Notes under the pieces: generated by a model
Told to the model about the DNA's origin: nothing
Database searches by the model: none
What the model saw: only the letters and a program-made list of their open reading frames with translations
DNA from: Saccharothrix sp. NRRL B-16314
GTDB taxonomy: Bacteria > Actinomycetota > Actinomycetes > Mycobacteriales > Pseudonocardiaceae
Direction of reading: 5' to 3'
Length of the DNA stretch: 64,000 nucleotides
NCBI RefSeq assembly: GCF_000716595.1
Contig: NZ_JNXC01000003.1
Coordinates: 1 to 64,000 of the forward strand
Translations under genes and position numbers: made by a program
In this document: piece by piece, positions 1,416 to 60,128 of the stretch
How positions within the stretch are numbered: position 1 is the stretch's first letter
Layout of the letters: each line of letters opens with the position of its first letter

Positions 1416-2138
1416 ATGGACACCGGTGTGGAAGCTGCTCCGCTGGTACTGCTGCACGCCTTCCCGTTCGACTCGCGCATGTGGGACGGGGTGCGTGACC
1501 TGCTGAAACCGGTCACGCCCGACCAGCGCGGCGGTGATCGTTCACCCGATCTGATGGTCGTTGCGGACGACGTGCTGCGGCTGCTGGACGAGCGCGGGAT
1601 CGAGCGGGTGGTGCTCGGCGGGTGCTCGATGGGTGGGTACGTGGCGATGGCCGTGCTGCGGCGGGACCCGTCGAGGGTGGCCGGGCTGGTGCTCGCCGAC
1701 ACGCGTGCCAGCGCGGACGCGGACGAGGCGCGGGCGAACCGGCTGGCGATGGCCGCGCGGGTCGAGGCCGAGGGCGTCGGGTGGGTGCCGGACGCGGCGA
1801 CGGGTGGGTTGCTCGGGCCTGCGGCGGACGCGGCGGTGGTCGGGAGGGTGCGGGAGCTGATCTTGCGGCAGGACCCGGCGGAGGTGGTGTGGGCGCAGCG
1901 GGCGATGGCCGCGCGGCCGGACTCGACGGAGGTCCTGGCGTCGGTGGACGTCCCGGCGTTGGTGCTGGTGGGTGAGCACGATGCCCTCACGCCACCCGCG
2001 TCGGCCCGGGAGCTGGCAGCGGTGCTGCGGCAGGCCGAGTACGTCGAGTTGCCGGGTGCCGGGCACCTGACGCCGGTGGAGGCGCCGGACGCGTTCGCCT
2101 CGGCGGTACTGGACTGGCGTCACCGCACCGGTGTGTGA
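1416..2138 (+). CDS. alpha/beta hydrolase
   Basis: This 240-residue alpha/beta hydrolase starts straight into the fold with VLLHAFPFDSRMWD, the HxFPxD oxyanion-hole region of small esterase/BioH-like enzymes. The nucleophile elbow is GGCSMGGY with Ser71. The acid lies in VGEHDALTPP and the His in GAGHLTPVEAP, so the triad is complete. There is no signal peptide, so it should act in the cytosol. The ATG at 1416 lies a few dozen bases from the divergent GNAT gene, so the two may share a promoter region. Downstream lies a repeat array. The substrate is unknown. Confidence 0.87.
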   Translation: MDTGVEAAPLVLLHAFPFDSRMWDGVRDLLKPVTPDQRGGDRSPDLMVVADDVLRLLDERGIERVVLGGCSMGGYVAMAVLRRDPSRVAGLVLADTRASADADEARANRLAMAARVEAEGVGWVPDAATGGLLGPAADAAVVGRVRELILRQDPAEVVWAQRAMAARPDSTEVLASVDVPALVLVGEHDALTPPASARELAAVLRQAEYVELPGAGHLTPVEAPDAFASAVLDWRHRTGV

Positions 2139-2204
2139 CGGCGCGGTTCTCTTCGGCCGGCTCCCGGTCCCTCACCGTGCAGTGCCTGAGCGGCGGGCTC
2201 GCGT

Positions 2205-2312
2205 GTTCTGAGCGTTGAATTCACGCGTTCTGAACGTAGGACTCACGCGTTCTGAACGTAGGACTCACGCGTTCTGAACGTAGGACTCACGGGGCGGGAA
2301 GGTAGGACTCTC
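2205..2312 (+). repeat. 22-bp-periodic repeat array, locus 1 (single orientation)
   Basis: Five units sit at an exact 22-base period, starting at 2205, 2227, 2249, 2271 and 2293. The main unit is GTTCTGAACGTAGGACTCAC plus a 2-base linker, usually GC. The first unit is a variant with GAGCGTTGAATTCAC in place of GAACGTAGGACTCAC, and the last is degenerate (GAAGGTAGGACTCTC). The array fills the gap between the hydrolase and the convergent DivIVA-type gene. The same units occur in inverted pairs near 24.2 and 44.3 kb. Confidence 0.95.
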
Positions 2313-2316
2313 GCGG

Positions 2317-3678
2317 TCAGCGCTTGCCGGCGTTGGCCCGGGGGTTGGGGCGGGCGATCTTCTGGGTGGGGCCGTCCGGGGACGGTTTGTCGGCTTCGGC
2401 CGGGGTGGGCTGGGGGTTCTTGGGCCTGGCCGGGCTGGCGCCGGAGCCCGACCTGGAGCCCGAGCCCGACCCGGCACCGGAGCTCGACCCGGCACCGGAG
2501 CCGGAGGCTGCGGCGGGTGGTGCGGTGGGGGGAGCCGAGGGTGGCCCGGGGGGGGTGGAGGGGGTGCCGCCGGTCGGGGTGCCGCCGCCCGGGGTGCCGC
2601 CGGCCGGGGTGGAGGGGGTGTTGCCGGCAGGGGTGCCGGAGGCGGGAGGGGCAGCGGGAGTGGTGGGGGTGGTGGGGCGTTCTTCCTCTAGCGGGTCGAG
2701 GAGGGGGGTTACGTCGTGCAGGGCCGTGCGGACGGAGTGCAGCTGCTGGGACAGGCGGTTGCGGAGCTGCCTGAGGGCGTCGACCTTCTGGGTGGCCTGC
2801 GTGACGCGGCGGTTGGCGTCCTCGGTGGCCTCGCGCACCCGGCGGTTCGCCTCGTCGGTCGCCTCCTGGACGCGGGCGGTGGCCTCGCTGATGGAGTCGT
2901 GGCGACGGCGGTTCGCCTCTTCGGTCGCTTCACGCACCAAGCGCTGCGCCTCGGCGTTCGAAGCGGCCTGTTCCTGGGCGATCTGGGCACGCACGCGCGC
3001 GGCTTCCTCGGCCGCCTCGCGCAGCCGCCGCTCGGCCTCGCCCTTCGACGACGCCTCCTGCTCGGCCAGCACCTTCATCGACTCGACCCGCCGGGCCGCC
3101 ATCGCGATCTCGAAGTCTTCCTCGATCGTGTTCCGCCGCTGGAGCGACTCCGCGTCCAACCGGGCGGCCTCGGCCTGCGCCTCGCCCACGACCCGCTCGG
3201 CCTCGGCGCGCGCCCTCTCCAGCACGCCCCGGTGCTCGGCCTCCATGTCGGCGCGACGCTGGTCCAGCTCGGCGATGAGCTTCTCGTACCGGGTGCGCAG
3301 CACCCCCGCGTCGGCCTCGGCCTTGGCCCGGATGTGCCCGCCCTCGGCCTCGGCCCGCGCCTTGATCTCGTTCGCCTCGTCCTGGGCGAGCCGCAGCATC
3401 CGCTGCAACCGCTCGCTCAGCCCTTCCAGCGTGGTCGGCGGCAGCGACAGCCGTTCCACCTGGCCGCGCAGCTCGGCGATCTCCGACCGGGCCGCTTCGA
3501 GCTGCCGGGTCAGGTCGTTGGTCTGCGACACCGCCGCGTCGCGGTCGGCCGCGAGCAGGCGCAGGTCGGAGTCGAGGCGTTCCAGGTGGTCCTCGACCTG
3601 GGCGCGGTCGTACCCGCGCTTGACGATGTCGAAGCCGGATCCCAGGGGGACGAGGTCACGGTCGTCGGCGAGGCCCAT
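2317..3678 (-). CDS. DivIVA-domain coiled-coil protein with Pro/Gly/Ser/Thr-rich tail
   Basis: This 453-residue protein begins with a DivIVA/Wag31-type N-terminus (LVPLGSGFDIVKRGYDRAQVEDHLERLD), the segment that in this family binds curved membrane and recruits partners. A long charged coiled coil follows to about residue 330, rich in AEAER and EEANRR heptads. The C-terminal 120 or so residues are low-complexity (GTPxG and SGSGAG repeats) and then basic, ending RANAGKR. Family knowledge suggests a polar or septal scaffold; which one is not shown. ATG 3678 was chosen because it places the DivIVA motif near the N-terminus; the frame extends to 3729 without a better start. A paralogue with the same layout lies at 58818-60128. 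Confidence 0.85.
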   Translation of the reverse strand: MGLADDRDLVPLGSGFDIVKRGYDRAQVEDHLERLDSDLRLLAADRDAAVSQTNDLTRQLEAARSEIAELRGQVERLSLPPTTLEGLSERLQRMLRLAQDEANEIKARAEAEGGHIRAKAEADAGVLRTRYEKLIAELDQRRADMEAEHRGVLERARAEAERVVGEAQAEAARLDAESLQRRNTIEEDFEIAMAARRVESMKVLAEQEASSKGEAERRLREAAEEAARVRAQIAQEQAASNAEAQRLVREATEEANRRRHDSISEATARVQEATDEANRRVREATEDANRRVTQATQKVDALRQLRNRLSQQLHSVRTALHDVTPLLDPLEEERPTTPTTPAAPPASGTPAGNTPSTPAGGTPGGGTPTGGTPSTPPGPPSAPPTAPPAAASGSGAGSSSGAGSGSGSRSGSGASPARPKNPQPTPAEADKPSPDGPTQKIARPNPRANAGKR

Positions 3679-3698
3679 GCCGCTCACGCTACCCGCTC

Positions 3699-5682: not shown

Positions 5683-5814
5683 CGAGCTCACGCCACCCCG
5701 CAAGGTCGCGCTAGCTCACGAGTTCGCGCCCCCGCGAGGTCGCGCTAGCTCACTAGCTCACGCCCCCCCGCGAGGTCACGTTCGCTCACGAAGGTCACGC
5801 CCCGCGAGGTCGCG
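5683..5814 (+). repeat. four imperfect 28-36 bp tandem repeats
   Basis: Four tandem units start at about 5683, 5711, 5745 and 5781. Each has the form CTAGCTCAC, a variable stretch, then CCCCGCGAGGTCGCG. They fill the gap between the SPW gene and the TetR gene. A short hairpin (CCGACC, CGCA, GGTCGG at 5644-5659) precedes them. No coding potential is seen. Confidence 0.8.
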
Positions 5815-22195: not shown

Positions 22196-23110
22196 ATGAC
22201 AGGGGCACGCATACCGGCCGTCGTGGTTGCGGACATCAGAAAGAACTACGGCGAGCTGAAGGCGGTCGACGGGGTTTCGTTCACCGTCGCCGAGGGGGAG
22301 TTCTTCGGCATCCTGGGGCCGAACGGCGCAGGCAAGACCACCACGCTGGAGATCGTCGAAGGGCTGCGCAAGGCGGACGCCGGGCACGTGACGCTGCTCG
22401 GCGAGGAACCGTGGCCGCGCAACCCGAAGCTGCTGCCGAAGATCGGCGTGCAGCTCCAGGCGTCCAGCTTCTTCGAGAAGCTGACCGCGCGGGAGCAGTT
22501 GCAGACGTTCGGGTCGCTGTACGGGGTGAGCAGGCAGACCGCCGACGACATGCTCGAACTGGTCGGCCTGACCGACAAGGCGGACGTGCAGGAGAACAAG
22601 CTGTCCGGGGGCCAGCGGCAGCGGCTGTCGATCGCGTGCGCGCTGGTGCACGACCCGGACATCGTGTTCCTGGACGAACCGACCGCGGCGCTGGACCCGC
22701 AGGCCCGGCGCAACCTGTGGGACGTGCTGCGCGCGATCCAGGCGCGGGGCAAGACCATCGTCTACACGACGCACTACCTGGACGAGGCCGAGATCCTGTG
22801 CGACCGGGTGGCGATCATGGACCGGGGCCGGATCCTCGCCATGGACGCCCCCGCGACGCTGGTCCGCGGCCTGAACGCGCCGACGCACGTCGTGCTCCAG
22901 AAGGGCGTGCTCACACGTGAGGCGGCCCGCGACATCACCGGCGTCGAGGACGCGCAGGAGGACGAGGTCTCGCTGACCATCTCCACCCGCAAGCCCGCGC
23001 CGGTCCTGTCGGCGCTCGCCGACCGCGGCACCCTGGACGGGCTCCAGGTGCGCACGGCCACGTTGGAGGACGTGTTCCTCGACCTGACCGGACGGGAGTA
23101 CCGCGCATGA
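22196..23110 (+). CDS. ABC transporter ATP-binding protein (drug/ABC-2 exporter type)
   Basis: This 304-residue ATPase has Walker A GPNGAGKTT near residue 45, the Q-loop region GVQLQASSFFEKLTARE, the signature LSGGQRQRLSIACALV, and Walker B DIVFLDEPTAALDPQARR. The H-loop is YTTHYLDEAE. The C-terminal extension after residue 225 (ending TATLEDVFLDLTGREYRA) is that of CcmA/DrrA-type exporters. ATG 22196 was chosen; the upstream ATG 22151 is unlikely. The stop overlaps the permease start as ATGA. The pair forms a homodimeric-type ABC-2 exporter; the substrate is unknown. Confidence 0.93.
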   Translation: MTGARIPAVVVADIRKNYGELKAVDGVSFTVAEGEFFGILGPNGAGKTTTLEIVEGLRKADAGHVTLLGEEPWPRNPKLLPKIGVQLQASSFFEKLTAREQLQTFGSLYGVSRQTADDMLELVGLTDKADVQENKLSGGQRQRLSIACALVHDPDIVFLDEPTAALDPQARRNLWDVLRAIQARGKTIVYTTHYLDEAEILCDRVAIMDRGRILAMDAPATLVRGLNAPTHVVLQKGVLTREAARDITGVEDAQEDEVSLTISTRKPAPVLSALADRGTLDGLQVRTATLEDVFLDLTGREYRA

Positions 23111-24150
23111 CCGCCTTCAAGAGCCTGTCGTCAGCCATGGTCAAGGGCTTCCTGCGGGACAAGATGACGTTGTTCTTCGTCTTCCTGTTCCCGCTGATGT
23201 TCCTGGTCGTGTTCGGACTGCTGTTCAGCGACGCGGGCAGCGACAAGACGAAGATCGCGGCCGTCGGCGAGGGACCGGTGCTGTCGGCGCTGGAGCAGAC
23301 CGGCGCGCTGGAGCTCGAGAAGTACGGCGACGAGGCGACCGCGCGGCAGAAGGTGAACGACGGCGACCTGCCCGCGGCGGTGGTCGTGAACGGTGACCGG
23401 GTCGACGTGACGTTCGCGGCCAGCGACCAGGTCGCGGCGGGCACCGTGCTCGGCATCGTGTCCGGCGTGGTCGACAAGATCAACCTCGGCGAGGCGCAGG
23501 TCACGCCCCGGTTCACGCTGGAGGCCAAGCCGGTCGAGGACGCGTCGCTCAAGCCGATCCAGTACCTCACGCCGGGCATCCTGTCGTGGGCGATCTCGAT
23601 CTCGGGCGTGTTCGGCGCGGCGCTGACCATGGTGTCGTGGCGGAAGAAGCAGGTGCTGCGGCGGATCCGGCTGGCGCCGGTGAGCGCGACGACCGTGCTC
23701 TCGTCCCGCGTGCTGGTGAGCGTGGGCACGGCGGTGGCGCAGGGTGTCGTGTTCGTGGCGGTCGCGATGCTGCCGATGTTCGGGCTCAAGCTGACCGGTC
23801 AGTGGTACCTGGCGTTGCCGCTGCTGGTGCTGGGCACCACGGCGTTCTTCGCGATCGGGATGCTGGTCGGGGCGTTCTGCAAGACGGAGGAAGCGGCGTC
23901 CGGCGCGGCGAACATCATCATCCTGCCGATGGCGTTCCTGTCCGGCACGTTCTTCCCGGTGGAGAACGCGCCGGGCTGGCTCCAGGTCGTGTCCAACGTG
24001 TTCCCGTTGCGGCACATGAACGACGGCATGCTGGACGTCCTGGTCCGCGGCAAGGGCGTCGAAGCCCTCCTGCTCCCGTCCGCGGTCCTGATCGGCTTCA
24101 CCCTCGTGGTCGGCTTCCTGGCCGCCCGCCTCTTCCGCTGGGAAGACTAA
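23107..24150 (+). CDS. ABC-2 type transporter permease
   Basis: This 347-residue membrane protein has one N-terminal helix (LFFVFLFPLMFLVVFGLLF, residues 22-40). A soluble extracytoplasmic loop of about 120 residues follows, then five helices at the C-terminus, including ILSWAISISGVFGAALTM and NIIILPMAFLSGTFFPVENAPGW. The last is the ABC-2 signature of drug and lipid exporters. It is translationally coupled to the ATPase before it. A repeat array starts 3 bases after the stop. Confidence 0.92.
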   Translation: MTAFKSLSSAMVKGFLRDKMTLFFVFLFPLMFLVVFGLLFSDAGSDKTKIAAVGEGPVLSALEQTGALELEKYGDEATARQKVNDGDLPAAVVVNGDRVDVTFAASDQVAAGTVLGIVSGVVDKINLGEAQVTPRFTLEAKPVEDASLKPIQYLTPGILSWAISISGVFGAALTMVSWRKKQVLRRIRLAPVSATTVLSSRVLVSVGTAVAQGVVFVAVAMLPMFGLKLTGQWYLALPLLVLGTTAFFAIGMLVGAFCKTEEAASGAANIIILPMAFLSGTFFPVENAPGWLQVVSNVFPLRHMNDGMLDVLVRGKGVEALLLPSAVLIGFTLVVGFLAARLFRWED

Positions 24151-24152
24151 CC

Positions 24153-24334
24153 GTGAGTCCTACGTTCAGGACGCGTGAGTCCTACGTTCAGGACCCCCGA
24201 GTTCAACGCTCAGAACGCGTGAGGTCACGCCCGGGATCGCTGGGGAGTCACCCGTCGGAGGCGTTCCGGCGTTCTGAGCGTTGAACTCACCTGTTCCGAA
24301 CGTAGGACTCACGCGACCGGAACGTAGGACTCAC
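24153..24334. repeat. 22-bp-periodic repeats, locus 2 (two inverted arms)
   Basis: Three units run at 24153, 24175 and 24197 in the GTGAGTCCTACGTTCAGGAC sense. After a 54-base centre come three units in the opposite sense at 24271, 24293 and 24315. The period is 22 bases throughout. The variant unit (GAGCGTTGAACTCAC sense) is the innermost on both sides, so the arms read outward. It follows the ABC permease stop by 2 bases and may act as its transcript end. Confidence 0.95.
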
Positions 24335-44250: not shown

Positions 44251-44433
44251 GTTCCGAACGTTGAATTCACCCGTCCCGAACGTAGGACTCACCGGTCCCG
44301 AACGTAGGACTCACGCGACGCGAACGTAGGACTCACGCGAAGGCCGCGTGAGTCCTACGTTCAGGGCCCGTGAGTCCTACGTTCAGTGCGGGCGAGTCCT
44401 ACGTTCGGGACGGGTGAGTTCAACGCTCGGGAC
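44251..44433. repeat. 22-bp-periodic repeats, locus 3 (near-perfect inverted arms)
   Basis: Four units run in one sense at 44251, 44273, 44295 and 44317 and four in the opposite sense at 44348, 44370, 44392 and 44414, with an 11-base centre. The variant units (GAACGTTGAATTCAC and the complement of GAGCGTTGAACTCAC) are the outermost on both sides, so the arms read inward, opposite to locus 2. Each arm spans 86 bases, enough for a very long hairpin. Confidence 0.95.
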
Positions 44434-44446
44434 GAGGGAGTGGGGG

Positions 44447-44833
44447 TCAGGTGACGGCTTGGGTGGCGCCGGGGCGAACGGGGAGGCCGGCGGCGGCGTA
44501 GGCGCGGAAGCCGCCGATCAGGTCCGTGGCGTTGGGCAGGCCCACGCGTTGCAGGTCACGGGCGGCAAGGCTGGAGGCGTAGCCCTCGTTGCACAGCACG
44601 ACGACGGTGGTGTCGGCGGTGAAGCCGGTGATGCGGTGCGTGCCGGTCGGGTCCAACCGCCATTCCAGGACGATGCGCTCCACCGGGATCGAGCCGGGCA
44701 CCTCACCCTCGGCGGCACGGTCGTGGTGCGGGCGGATGTCCACCACCAGCACGTCCGACAGGTCGGCCAGCCCGTGCGGCTCCACGCGGGTCAGGGCGCG
44801 GCGGGCTTCGTCCAGCAACTCCTCGGCACTCAC
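44447..44833 (-). CDS. rhodanese-like protein
   Basis: This 128-residue single rhodanese domain has the active-site loop VVVLCNEGYASSLAA (Cys in CNEGYASS), preceded by VLVVDIRPHHDRAAEGEVPGSIPVERIVLEW, the usual second-strand run. Rhodaneses move sulfane sulfur from persulfides. GTG 44833 overlaps the cysteine dioxygenase stop (GTGA), so the two are translationally coupled. Together they point to disposal of cysteine-derived sulfur. Confidence 0.92.
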   Translation of the reverse strand: MSAEELLDEARRALTRVEPHGLADLSDVLVVDIRPHHDRAAEGEVPGSIPVERIVLEWRLDPTGTHRITGFTADTTVVVLCNEGYASSLAARDLQRVGLPNATDLIGGFRAYAAAGLPVRPGATQAVT

Positions 44834-58817: not shown

Positions 58818-60128
58818 ATGGGTGCGAAAGAGCCGGAGATTGTTCCGCTGCACACGGGTTTCGACGTGGTCTACCGAGGATTCCACCGGCGCCAGGTGAT
58901 CGAACACCTGGAGAACCTGGAAGAACAGCTCAAGTACACCGGCCTCGACCGCGCCGAGGCGCTGGCCCAGGCGGCCGACCTGCGCAAGCTGCTGGAGATG
59001 ACCAGGCGCGACCTGGAGCAGGCCAGGTCCAGGATCGAGCGGCTGGAGATGTCGCCCAGCACCACCACGGGCGCCGGGGAGCGCATGCACCGGATGCTCA
59101 TGATGGCCGAGGAGGAGTCGAACGAACTCCGCGTGCGCGCCGACCGTGACGTCGCGGACCTGCGCGAGCGCACCGAGGCCGAGTTGGCCGAGTACCGGCG
59201 CGGGGTGGAGGACGAGCTGGCCGAGCGGTGCGCCCAGGCCGACGCCCGCGCCCGCGAGCAGCGTGACGCCGCCAACCGCCGGGCGGCCGAGCTGGACCAG
59301 CGCGAAGTCGACCTGGAACGCCGTCAGGCCGAGGTCGAGGCGCACCTCAAGGCCCGTGCCGAGCAGGTGGAGGCCGAGTGCGCCGACATCCTGGCGAAGG
59401 CCGAGCGGGACGGGGAGCGGCTGGTGCGGGAGGCCGGCGAGCGGTGTGCCGCGGTGGAGGCGGCGTCCGACGCGAAGCGGACCAAGGCGCAGAACTTCTT
59501 CGAGCTGACCATGGCCCGGCGACGGCACGAGGCCGAGCGGCACTTCGCGGAGCAGGACCACCTGGCGAAGACGCGGGCCGCTTTCCTGATCAAGCTCGCG
59601 GTGCGCGAGACGGCGCGGCGGACCGCTGAGATCCAGCAGCGGGCGGACGAACTACGCGAGCTGCGCCAGACGGTGGCCGCCCAGATCGCCTCGGCCCGGA
59701 TCGCGTTGGACGAGGCGGCGGAACGGGTGCCGAACCTGATCCCCGAGCAGATGACGGTGGAGCAGGCGACGGTGGAGCAGACCGGTGCCGCCCAGAAGAG
59801 TGCCGCCCAGAAGAGTGCCGCCCAGGAGAGTGCGGGGCAGGAGAGCGTCGGGCAGGTTGCTCCCGAGCAGCTGAGTGCTGCCCAGGTGAACGCCGCCCAG
59901 GCGGGTTCGGCGCCGCTCAGTCCGGCGCAAGTGGGTCCGGCGCAGGTCAGTTCGGGACAGCCGAAATCGGGGCAGCCGAGCCCGGCGCACGTGAGTCCGG
60001 CGCAGCTGGGTCCGGGGCAGACGAGTTCGGGCCAGGCATCTCCGGCGCAGGTGAGTGCGGCTCCGGTGGATTCCGGGCAGGTCGGGTCGGAGCAGACGGG
60101 CACTGACGGGCAGCGCGTCGGTGCTTGA
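58818..60128 (+). CDS. DivIVA-like coiled-coil protein with 5-residue repeat tail
   Basis: This 436-residue protein opens with IVPLHTGFDVVYRGFHRRQVIEHLENLEEQLKYTG (residues 8-42), a DivIVA-like membrane-binding lead, and continues as a long coiled coil (QAADLRKLLEMTRRDLEQARSRIERLEM) to about residue 315. The last 120 residues are tandem 5-residue phrases of the form xxAQx or SxGQx, such as SPAQV, PAQVS and SGQPK, about 25 in all. The coiled part is paralogous to the 2317-3678 gene, but the tail differs. ATG 58818 is preferred over the longer frame. A proline-rich membrane protein follows 13 bases later. Confidence 0.83.
   Translation: MGAKEPEIVPLHTGFDVVYRGFHRRQVIEHLENLEEQLKYTGLDRAEALAQAADLRKLLEMTRRDLEQARSRIERLEMSPSTTTGAGERMHRMLMMAEEESNELRVRADRDVADLRERTEAELAEYRRGVEDELAERCAQADARAREQRDAANRRAAELDQREVDLERRQAEVEAHLKARAEQVEAECADILAKAERDGERLVREAGERCAAVEAASDAKRTKAQNFFELTMARRRHEAERHFAEQDHLAKTRAAFLIKLAVRETARRTAEIQQRADELRELRQTVAAQIASARIALDEAAERVPNLIPEQMTVEQATVEQTGAAQKSAAQKSAAQESAGQESVGQVAPEQLSAAQVNAAQAGSAPLSPAQVGPAQVSSGQPKSGQPSPAHVSPAQLGPGQTSSGQASPAQVSAAPVDSGQVGSEQTGTDGQRVGA

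Follow-up and report, generated by a model that had tools for sequence, protein, structure and literature searches.

Dispersed polar arrays of 22-bp repeats at gene 3' ends in an actinomycete genome: putative double-stranded DNA recognition sites

The window, meaning the whole stretch of 64,000 nucleotides that was analysed, contains five short polar arrays with an exact 22-bp period, and similar arrays are dispersed over the source genome (G000), that of a soil actinomycete, predominantly at the 3' ends of genes. These are interpreted here as putative double-stranded DNA recognition arrays, whose candidate bound protein would end or insulate transcription units, a reading that is drawn from sequence comparison and to which a probability of about 0.4 is assigned. 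Recognition at the level of DNA is favoured because the arrays combine asymmetric conserved cores, freer linkers, a fixed period, discrete spacing of opposed arrays, an absence of arm pairing, and a location at stop codons. Actinomycetes are major antibiotic producers. To our knowledge, few gene-end signals besides hairpins and Rho sites are known in the high-GC members of this group, and no description of such arrays was found in open-licence PubMed Central papers. Dispersed arrays with polarity, a grammar, discrete spacing, and species dialects predict a new DNA-binding protein, and the junction behind sdhB, where some species have a hairpin and others an array, provides a natural experiment. 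If it is true that the arrays terminate transcription, they would represent ready-made bidirectional insulators.

Each repeat unit in the window consists of a 15-bp core and a 7-bp linker, and the five arrays, found at three loci, keep a spacing of exactly 22 bp. Main units (M) have the core GAACGTAGGACTCAC with few changes, and the leading variant unit (V) is spelled GAGCGTTGAAYTCRS or GAACGTTGAATTCAC. Including V, the full spans of arrays A to E are 2210-2312 (+), 24153-24211 (-), 24276-24334 (+), 44256-44336 (+), and 44348-44428 (-), and their components are as follows.

2188-2202: degenerate unit (GAGCGGCGGGCTCGC), in phase, 22 bp upstream of the V unit of array A
2210-2224, plus strand: leading variant unit V (GAGCGTTGAATTCAC) of array A
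2232-2312, plus strand: array A, main units exact at 2232, 2254, and 2276, then a fourth, degenerate one at 2298-2312
24153-24189, minus strand: array B, two main units
24197-24211, minus strand: leading variant unit V (GAGCGTTGAACTCGG) of array B
24276-24290, plus strand: leading variant unit V (GAGCGTTGAACTCAC) of array C, with a V..V gap to array B of 64 bp
24298-24334, plus strand: array C, two main units
44256-44270, plus strand: leading variant unit V (GAACGTTGAATTCAC) of array D
44278-44336, plus strand: array D, three main units, tail to tail with array E across an 11-bp gap
44348-44406, minus strand: array E, three main units, one of them mismatched at one base
44414-44428, minus strand: leading variant unit V (GAGCGTTGAACTCAC) of array E

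With up to three mismatches allowed, the window contains 17 copies of the core GAACGTAGGACTCAC, where 1.36 would be expected and 100 dinucleotide shuffles gave no more than 5. All five arrays at three loci that the first-pass annotation had reported, with their exact 22-base period, were found again, as was the variant unit that it had placed at the head of every array, the first recognisable unit being V in 5/5 cases. The tail of array A ends 4 bp short of the stop codon of a DivIVA-like gene (2317-3687, minus strand) and that of array B lies 2 bp past the stop codon of an ABC-2 permease gene (23107-24150, plus strand), while the V unit of array E is 18 bp from the stop codon of a rhodanese gene (44447-44833, minus strand). 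Other tandem repeats are also present in the window at 5685-5814 and 59908-60082, with periods of about 34 and 15 bp.

Throughout the source genome (8.93 Mb, 273 contigs), the core occurs 464 times with up to one mismatch (249 forward, 215 reverse), and a reversed control core gave 0 matches in the same search; the lack of further copies that was to have discredited the repeat family is thus contradicted. The anatomy of the arrays was described in a 1.26-Mb sample of this genome, comprising contig C1 in whole, the first 84 kb of C3 (including the window), and nine 20-kb stretches of C2, in which array density is biased because the stretches were picked around known hits. The sample contains 103 cores with up to one mismatch, 49 arrays, and 34 sites, and extrapolation by this ratio yields an estimate of about 220 arrays at about 150 sites genome-wide. 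Initially, 48 arrays were listed with fixed cores; the figure of 49 comes from a later scoring scheme that was built after these had been viewed. Applied to syntenic blocks, each of about 120 kb, the same scheme gave 33 arrays in eight other array-bearing genomes and 0 in two array-poor genomes, with 4 across all reversed controls combined. Genes were called with our own simple caller based on codon usage, not with a standard program.

The arrays possess an internal order that is finer than was originally stated, in that V is sometimes followed by a transitional unit before the main units begin. With V defined by AA at core positions 9-10, a criterion set after inspection of the source genome, V stands first in 74/82 arrays from nine genomes (44/49 in the source genome), and the other eight start with an M-like unit; array A of the window is scored among these eight by the array finder because the degenerate unit at 2188-2202 precedes its V. 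The transitional unit, typically GAACGTAGGACACGG and ending GACACGG, lies directly behind V in 14 of its 15 occurrences in the sample. The polarity and order claimed by the first-pass annotation are borne out by the 74 arrays, but the leading variant is not universal: when 32 arrays were sampled in other genera (eight genomes), V was first in nine, elsewhere in four, and missing from 19.

Conservation is concentrated in the core. Across 141 main units of the source genome, 14 of the 15 core positions carry at least 1.45 bits, and five of the seven linker positions carry 0.23-0.54 bits, a count that includes flanking sequence from the last unit of each array and with which the 92 strictly internal linkers between main units agree. 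These 92 comprise 45 distinct linkers while the core is kept, which rules out a simple tandem repeat (VNTR). Linkers behind V are better conserved (0.63-1.86 bits). A palindrome made up of linker plus core (GTCCT-GAACGT-AGGAC, by eye, in the source-genome spelling) was considered and dropped, as the core centres differ in other species. The ESYV-type protein fragments that the first-pass annotation had linked to related genomes are explained by the frame CGT GAG TCC TAC GTT CAG, which reads R-E-S-Y-V-Q, and two called genes finish ESYVQPP and ESYVRNL within arrays. Genes of the source genome that run into arrays and end in translated repeat include C1 861006-862385 and another ending at the C2 321378-321458 array, and further genes stop at a TGA inside the array's own GTGAGTCC.

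The placement of arrays relative to genes is strongly skewed. Of the 34 sites in the sample, 18 are in convergent gaps, 16 in same-strand gaps, and 0 in divergent gaps, compared with a background of 106 convergent, 360 same-strand, and 180 divergent gaps of at least 60 bp (chi-square p=7e-9), and the alternative of no preference for gene ends, against which the earlier claim had been staked, is accordingly contradicted. Single arrays account for 19 sites and opposed pairs for the remaining 15. The tail is directed toward a gene 3' end in 39/49 arrays and toward a gene 5' end in 10/49; where it faces a 3' end, 29 of 39 cases have either a last unit no more than 12 nt from the stop codon or a gene that enters the array (gene entry in 7 of the 29), and the other 10 are 30-122 nt off. 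Across nine array-bearing species, the syntenic block, which was selected because the source genome carries arrays at both of its ends, has arrays at 13/92 convergent, 2/315 same-strand, and 0/146 divergent junction observations. At the rplO junction (rplO-secY; C1 808599-808657 of the source genome), an array is present in G000 and, in the opposite orientation, in the otherwise array-poor G073.

Opposed pairs occur in a commoner form, in which V units face each other across the centre, and another in which M tails do so (44256-44428 of the window). Among the pairs listed, V..V gaps have lengths of only 20-22, 31, 41-43, 53, and 64-65 bp, as judged from 70 distinct spacers of nine genomes. The underlying pattern search covered 25 genomes with one V spelling; for gaps of 10-40 bp, 75 of 172 pairs were listed (from G059, G060, G061, G065, and G069), with the 97 pairs of G000, G070, G071, G072, G074, and G077 outside the listed set, and 51 of the 75 were kept after 24 near-identical G061 centres had been removed by hand, and for gaps of 41-71 bp all 19 pairs were listed and kept. 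Among 23 pairs of the source-genome sample and the syntenic blocks, the gaps were 17, 20, 21, 30, 31, 40, 42, 64, and 65 bp, the single 17 being from the source genome. The best period for the V..V gaps is 10.9-11.2 bp, a result that none of 2000 and of 20000 uniform draws attained; such draws overstate its significance because spacers of one length are partly related and shared descent explains part of the conservation of length. Mean identity of same-length spacers against shuffled ones is 0.466 vs 0.377 at 20 bp, 0.406 vs 0.373 at 21 bp, and 0.521 vs 0.386 at 31 bp, and 165/190, 178/190, and 51/66 spacer pairs, respectively, are less than 70% identical; an earlier relatedness test that omitted near-identical spacers, and so used 17/20, 18/20, and 7/12 at these lengths, gave less kinship. 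Spacer length is thus conserved better than spacer sequence, with descent partly responsible. Gaps of 42 and 64 bp also equal 20 bp plus one or two 22-bp units, and a decayed unit is visible by eye in some centres; since gaps of 41-43 and 64-65 bp may hold such units, the case for true 11-bp steps depends mainly on gaps of 30-31 and 53 bp. Tail-to-tail gaps follow no single phase and measure 2, 7, or 10-12 bp by species: by eye, they are 10-12 bp at 9/12 listed centres in the source genome and 3/4 plain listed ones in G061, nearly all 2 bp among those listed for G059, G060, G065, G070, and G072, and 7 bp in 15/15 of those listed for G041. For comparison, fits to Lac repressor looping in living E. 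coli gave helical repeats of 11.08 and 11.60 bp per turn (PMC1762422).

Comparison of the sdhB junction in different genomes places arrays where hairpins stand elsewhere. Behind sdhB, a perfect stem, 9 bp or longer, lies within 75 nt of the stop codon in 18/20 genomes that have no array against the stop, and in 0/5 that have an abutting array (Fisher p=4e-4, a value that is too small because the genomes are related); the two genomes missing the perfect stem have an imperfect one by eye. The sdhB junction holds an array in 11/25 genomes, with differing spellings, and six of these 11 retain the hairpin, the array being farther along or pointing away. Over the whole source genome, hairpins occur at 3/29 array-abutted ends and 100/520 others, a difference that is not significant (p=0.33). 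By eye, arrays are also present at tsaD in 7/24 genomes and at ilvE in 3/25. The spelling differences at a shared junction suggest concerted change, either via copying or by adaptation to a changing protein. Other elements occur at these places too: the convergent ilvE junction of G061, G070, G065, G077, G071, and G074 carries another dispersed inverted repeat, roughly TCGATTTGACATGGGGCCC ... ATGTCAAATCGA, and 3' of tsaD a common end, AGAGCGTTATTCA.AACTC, is found in G072, where it borders an apparent inserted element, and in G059, where there is only a short palindrome.

Within the genus (25 genomes including the source), two-unit matches number 116 to 552 in 15 genomes and 1-4 in another four, and are absent from the remaining six; the core spelling differs between species. 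The source-genome spelling exceeds 50 copies in eight of 390 genomes of the family, all in the same genus; with a relaxed pattern applied to twelve further genomes, which were chosen for already having some hits, seven of them, from five other genera of the family, give 65-178 matches. In a 394-genome sample of the class, for which only three family members were drawn, arrays were found in the source genome only and in none of the 391 genomes outside the family; two other genomes had one match each, and the reversed control matched in three genomes. The first-pass annotation had proposed a lineage-specific repeat, which agrees with this absence outside the family, and had named an Actinosynnema-related setting, which is upheld at the level of the genus but not for G068, itself without an array match. 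A phage or plasmid origin was rejected, as no match was obtained in viral contigs searched with a two-unit pattern or in plasmids and phages searched with the first window array. The array-poor G078 and G073 carry another dispersed gene-end repeat, about CCGTATGGCCTGCCCGAAGGGCTACCACA.

Several other explanations can be weighed against these data. The arrays could act as RNA-level terminators, with inverted pairs forming very long hairpins in both convergent transcripts that would end transcription or protect the 3' end; this would suit their location at gene 3' ends and the behaviour of paired convergent gaps, 9/9 of which have, on either strand, a fold much more stable than that of shuffled sequence (z -7 to -19). 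Paired arrays fold strongly because all units share one consensus, however, and the two arms of an inverted pair resemble each other no more than they resemble arms from other sites (n=11-12 for the source genome, n=22-23 overall): V cores show 2.00 mismatches vs 1.83 with shuffled partners in the source genome (p=0.84), and all eight arm comparisons give one-sided p values of 0.62-0.99. Moreover, 19/34 sites are single, and 5/9 single-array convergent gaps lack a better-than-shuffle fold on either strand (all z above -1). The single-array region 2139-2316 of the window gives z values of -0.7 and +0.5, and z falls below -2 in 6/18 single-array strands vs 98/192 strands of array-free convergent gaps. 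Discrete loop lengths are likewise not expected of hairpins. A selected RNA hairpin is disfavoured by the missing excess of arm complementarity and by the several unfolded single arrays, and RNA-level action is considered unlikely. V copies at sdhB in G069, G074, and G077 seemed by eye to covary, and the site-wise test gave no excess. Rfam covariance models gave 0 matches, both when window positions 1900-2600 were searched with E values of up to 1 and when the complete window was searched with gathering scores.

Alternatively, the arrays could be non-autonomous, MITE-like mobile elements, their units serving as transposase binding sites as at the ends of Tn7 and Mu and their 3' location reflecting tolerated insertion. 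Their high copy number and species-specific expansion are in keeping with this, as are the presence of the ilvE array in so few genomes and the situation in G061, where by eye one centre, AGTACAAGATCGTTTGTTCT, recurs exactly or nearly so in 28/42 of the V..V pairs listed, so that whole elements have been copied between sites recently; contig C1 of that genome is 9.69 Mb long, and 39/42 of these listed pairs are located past its 4.5-Mb mark. Against mobility, the arrays lack fixed outer ends, the number of units varies and the outer boundary is usually a stop codon, and the 11 genomes with an array at the same sdhB junction spell it differently. No transposase was found by a Pfam check among the ten window genes around the arrays, PF01797, the sole transposase family searched, is absent from the source genome, and the surroundings of the few arrays in G176 and G073, read by eye for an autonomous element, contain ordinary-looking genes. 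Mobility is judged a distinctly unlikely explanation of the arrays. BIME-like topology sites, at which gyrase or a nucleoid protein would be recruited to relieve positive supercoils between convergent genes, would account for the convergent bias and the lack of arrays in divergent gaps, but are improbable given that 16/34 sites are in same-strand gaps and that gyrase sites are not known to have a 15-bp polar specificity like that of these units. Most improbable is a role as uptake or exchange signals like the Neisseria DNA uptake sequence (DUS), conceived as genome-wide words with species dialects that are often paired at gene ends, since DUS are single short words and not polar arrays with a fixed internal order. 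The resemblance lies in array spellings that vary by species and in the dialects of DUS, of which intergenic copies are often paired in inverted orientation at terminators (PMC3630211).

In the preferred reading, that of double-stranded DNA recognition arrays, a sequence-specific protein would bind units side by side on one helix face, because 22 bp correspond to two turns at about 11 bp per turn, and the bound array would end or insulate the transcription unit by blocking RNA polymerase or aiding its release. There would be one array per gene end, such that many convergent pairs would carry two opposed arrays, and the core spelling would drift between species, probably together with its protein. 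Transcript ending, protein binding, and DNA topology had been offered as roles by the first-pass annotation; of these, protein binding is the best supported, albeit indirectly, and transcript ending, to which the place of the arrays and the sdhB exchange point, is plausible, though not via a selected RNA hairpin. A bolder version, regarded as possible though doubtful, holds that ending is hairpin-independent and protein-dependent: at 150-200 gene ends, by estimate, a polar, helically phased array and one dedicated protein would stop RNA polymerase just past the stop codon, and they would stand in for the hairpin at genes such as sdhB, with species dialects co-evolving with the protein.

Among known repeat systems, CRISPR repeats are about 24-48 bp long with non-repetitive spacers of regular size, according to PMC3733652, in which a search for five actinomycete name stems gave 0 occurrences. 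A CRISPR array is ruled out by the 15-bp core, the 7-bp linkers, and the number of units, mostly 3-5. REP and BIME elements are similar to the arrays in being hundreds of small extragenic repeats at 3' ends, with opposed orientations and species-specific spelling, and differ in that the array unit is an asymmetric direct repeat with a strict 22-bp period. Membership of the REP/RAYT system was rejected on three tested features, namely palindrome, RAYT gene, and GTAG tag. The units are asymmetric 15-mers and do not form the palindrome or stem-loop that REP requires; the RAYT gene (Y1_Tnp, PF01797) has 0 matches in the source genome, which is 98.97% complete, and PF01797 is found in 5/25 genomes of the genus (G060, G061, G071, and G079, with arrays, and G067, without) and is missing from 11/15 array-rich genomes; and the GTAG of the source-genome core reads GTTC, GTAC, or GTTG in units of G059 and G060, so the tag is not conserved.

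The remaining systems each share part of the array design. Neisseria DUS have species dialects and inverted pairs at gene ends, as the arrays do, but the arrays are tandem and polar with a variant first unit. The ends of the transposons Tn7 and Mu contain multiple 22-bp transposase sites and resemble the arrays in presenting several similarly sized sites in one orientation and in two opposed groups; the arrays, in contrast, lack a fixed terminus, are dispersed over many sites at stop codons, and have no transposase among the ten neighbouring genes checked. Iterons of plasmid origins are, like array units, direct repeats about two helical turns apart, but are found at one origin, whereas the arrays are dispersed over the chromosome at gene ends. 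Intrinsic terminators differ in that several single arrays are without a hairpin and arm pairing is not conserved, yet they share with the arrays a location behind the stop codon, and at sdhB the array occupies the hairpin's place.
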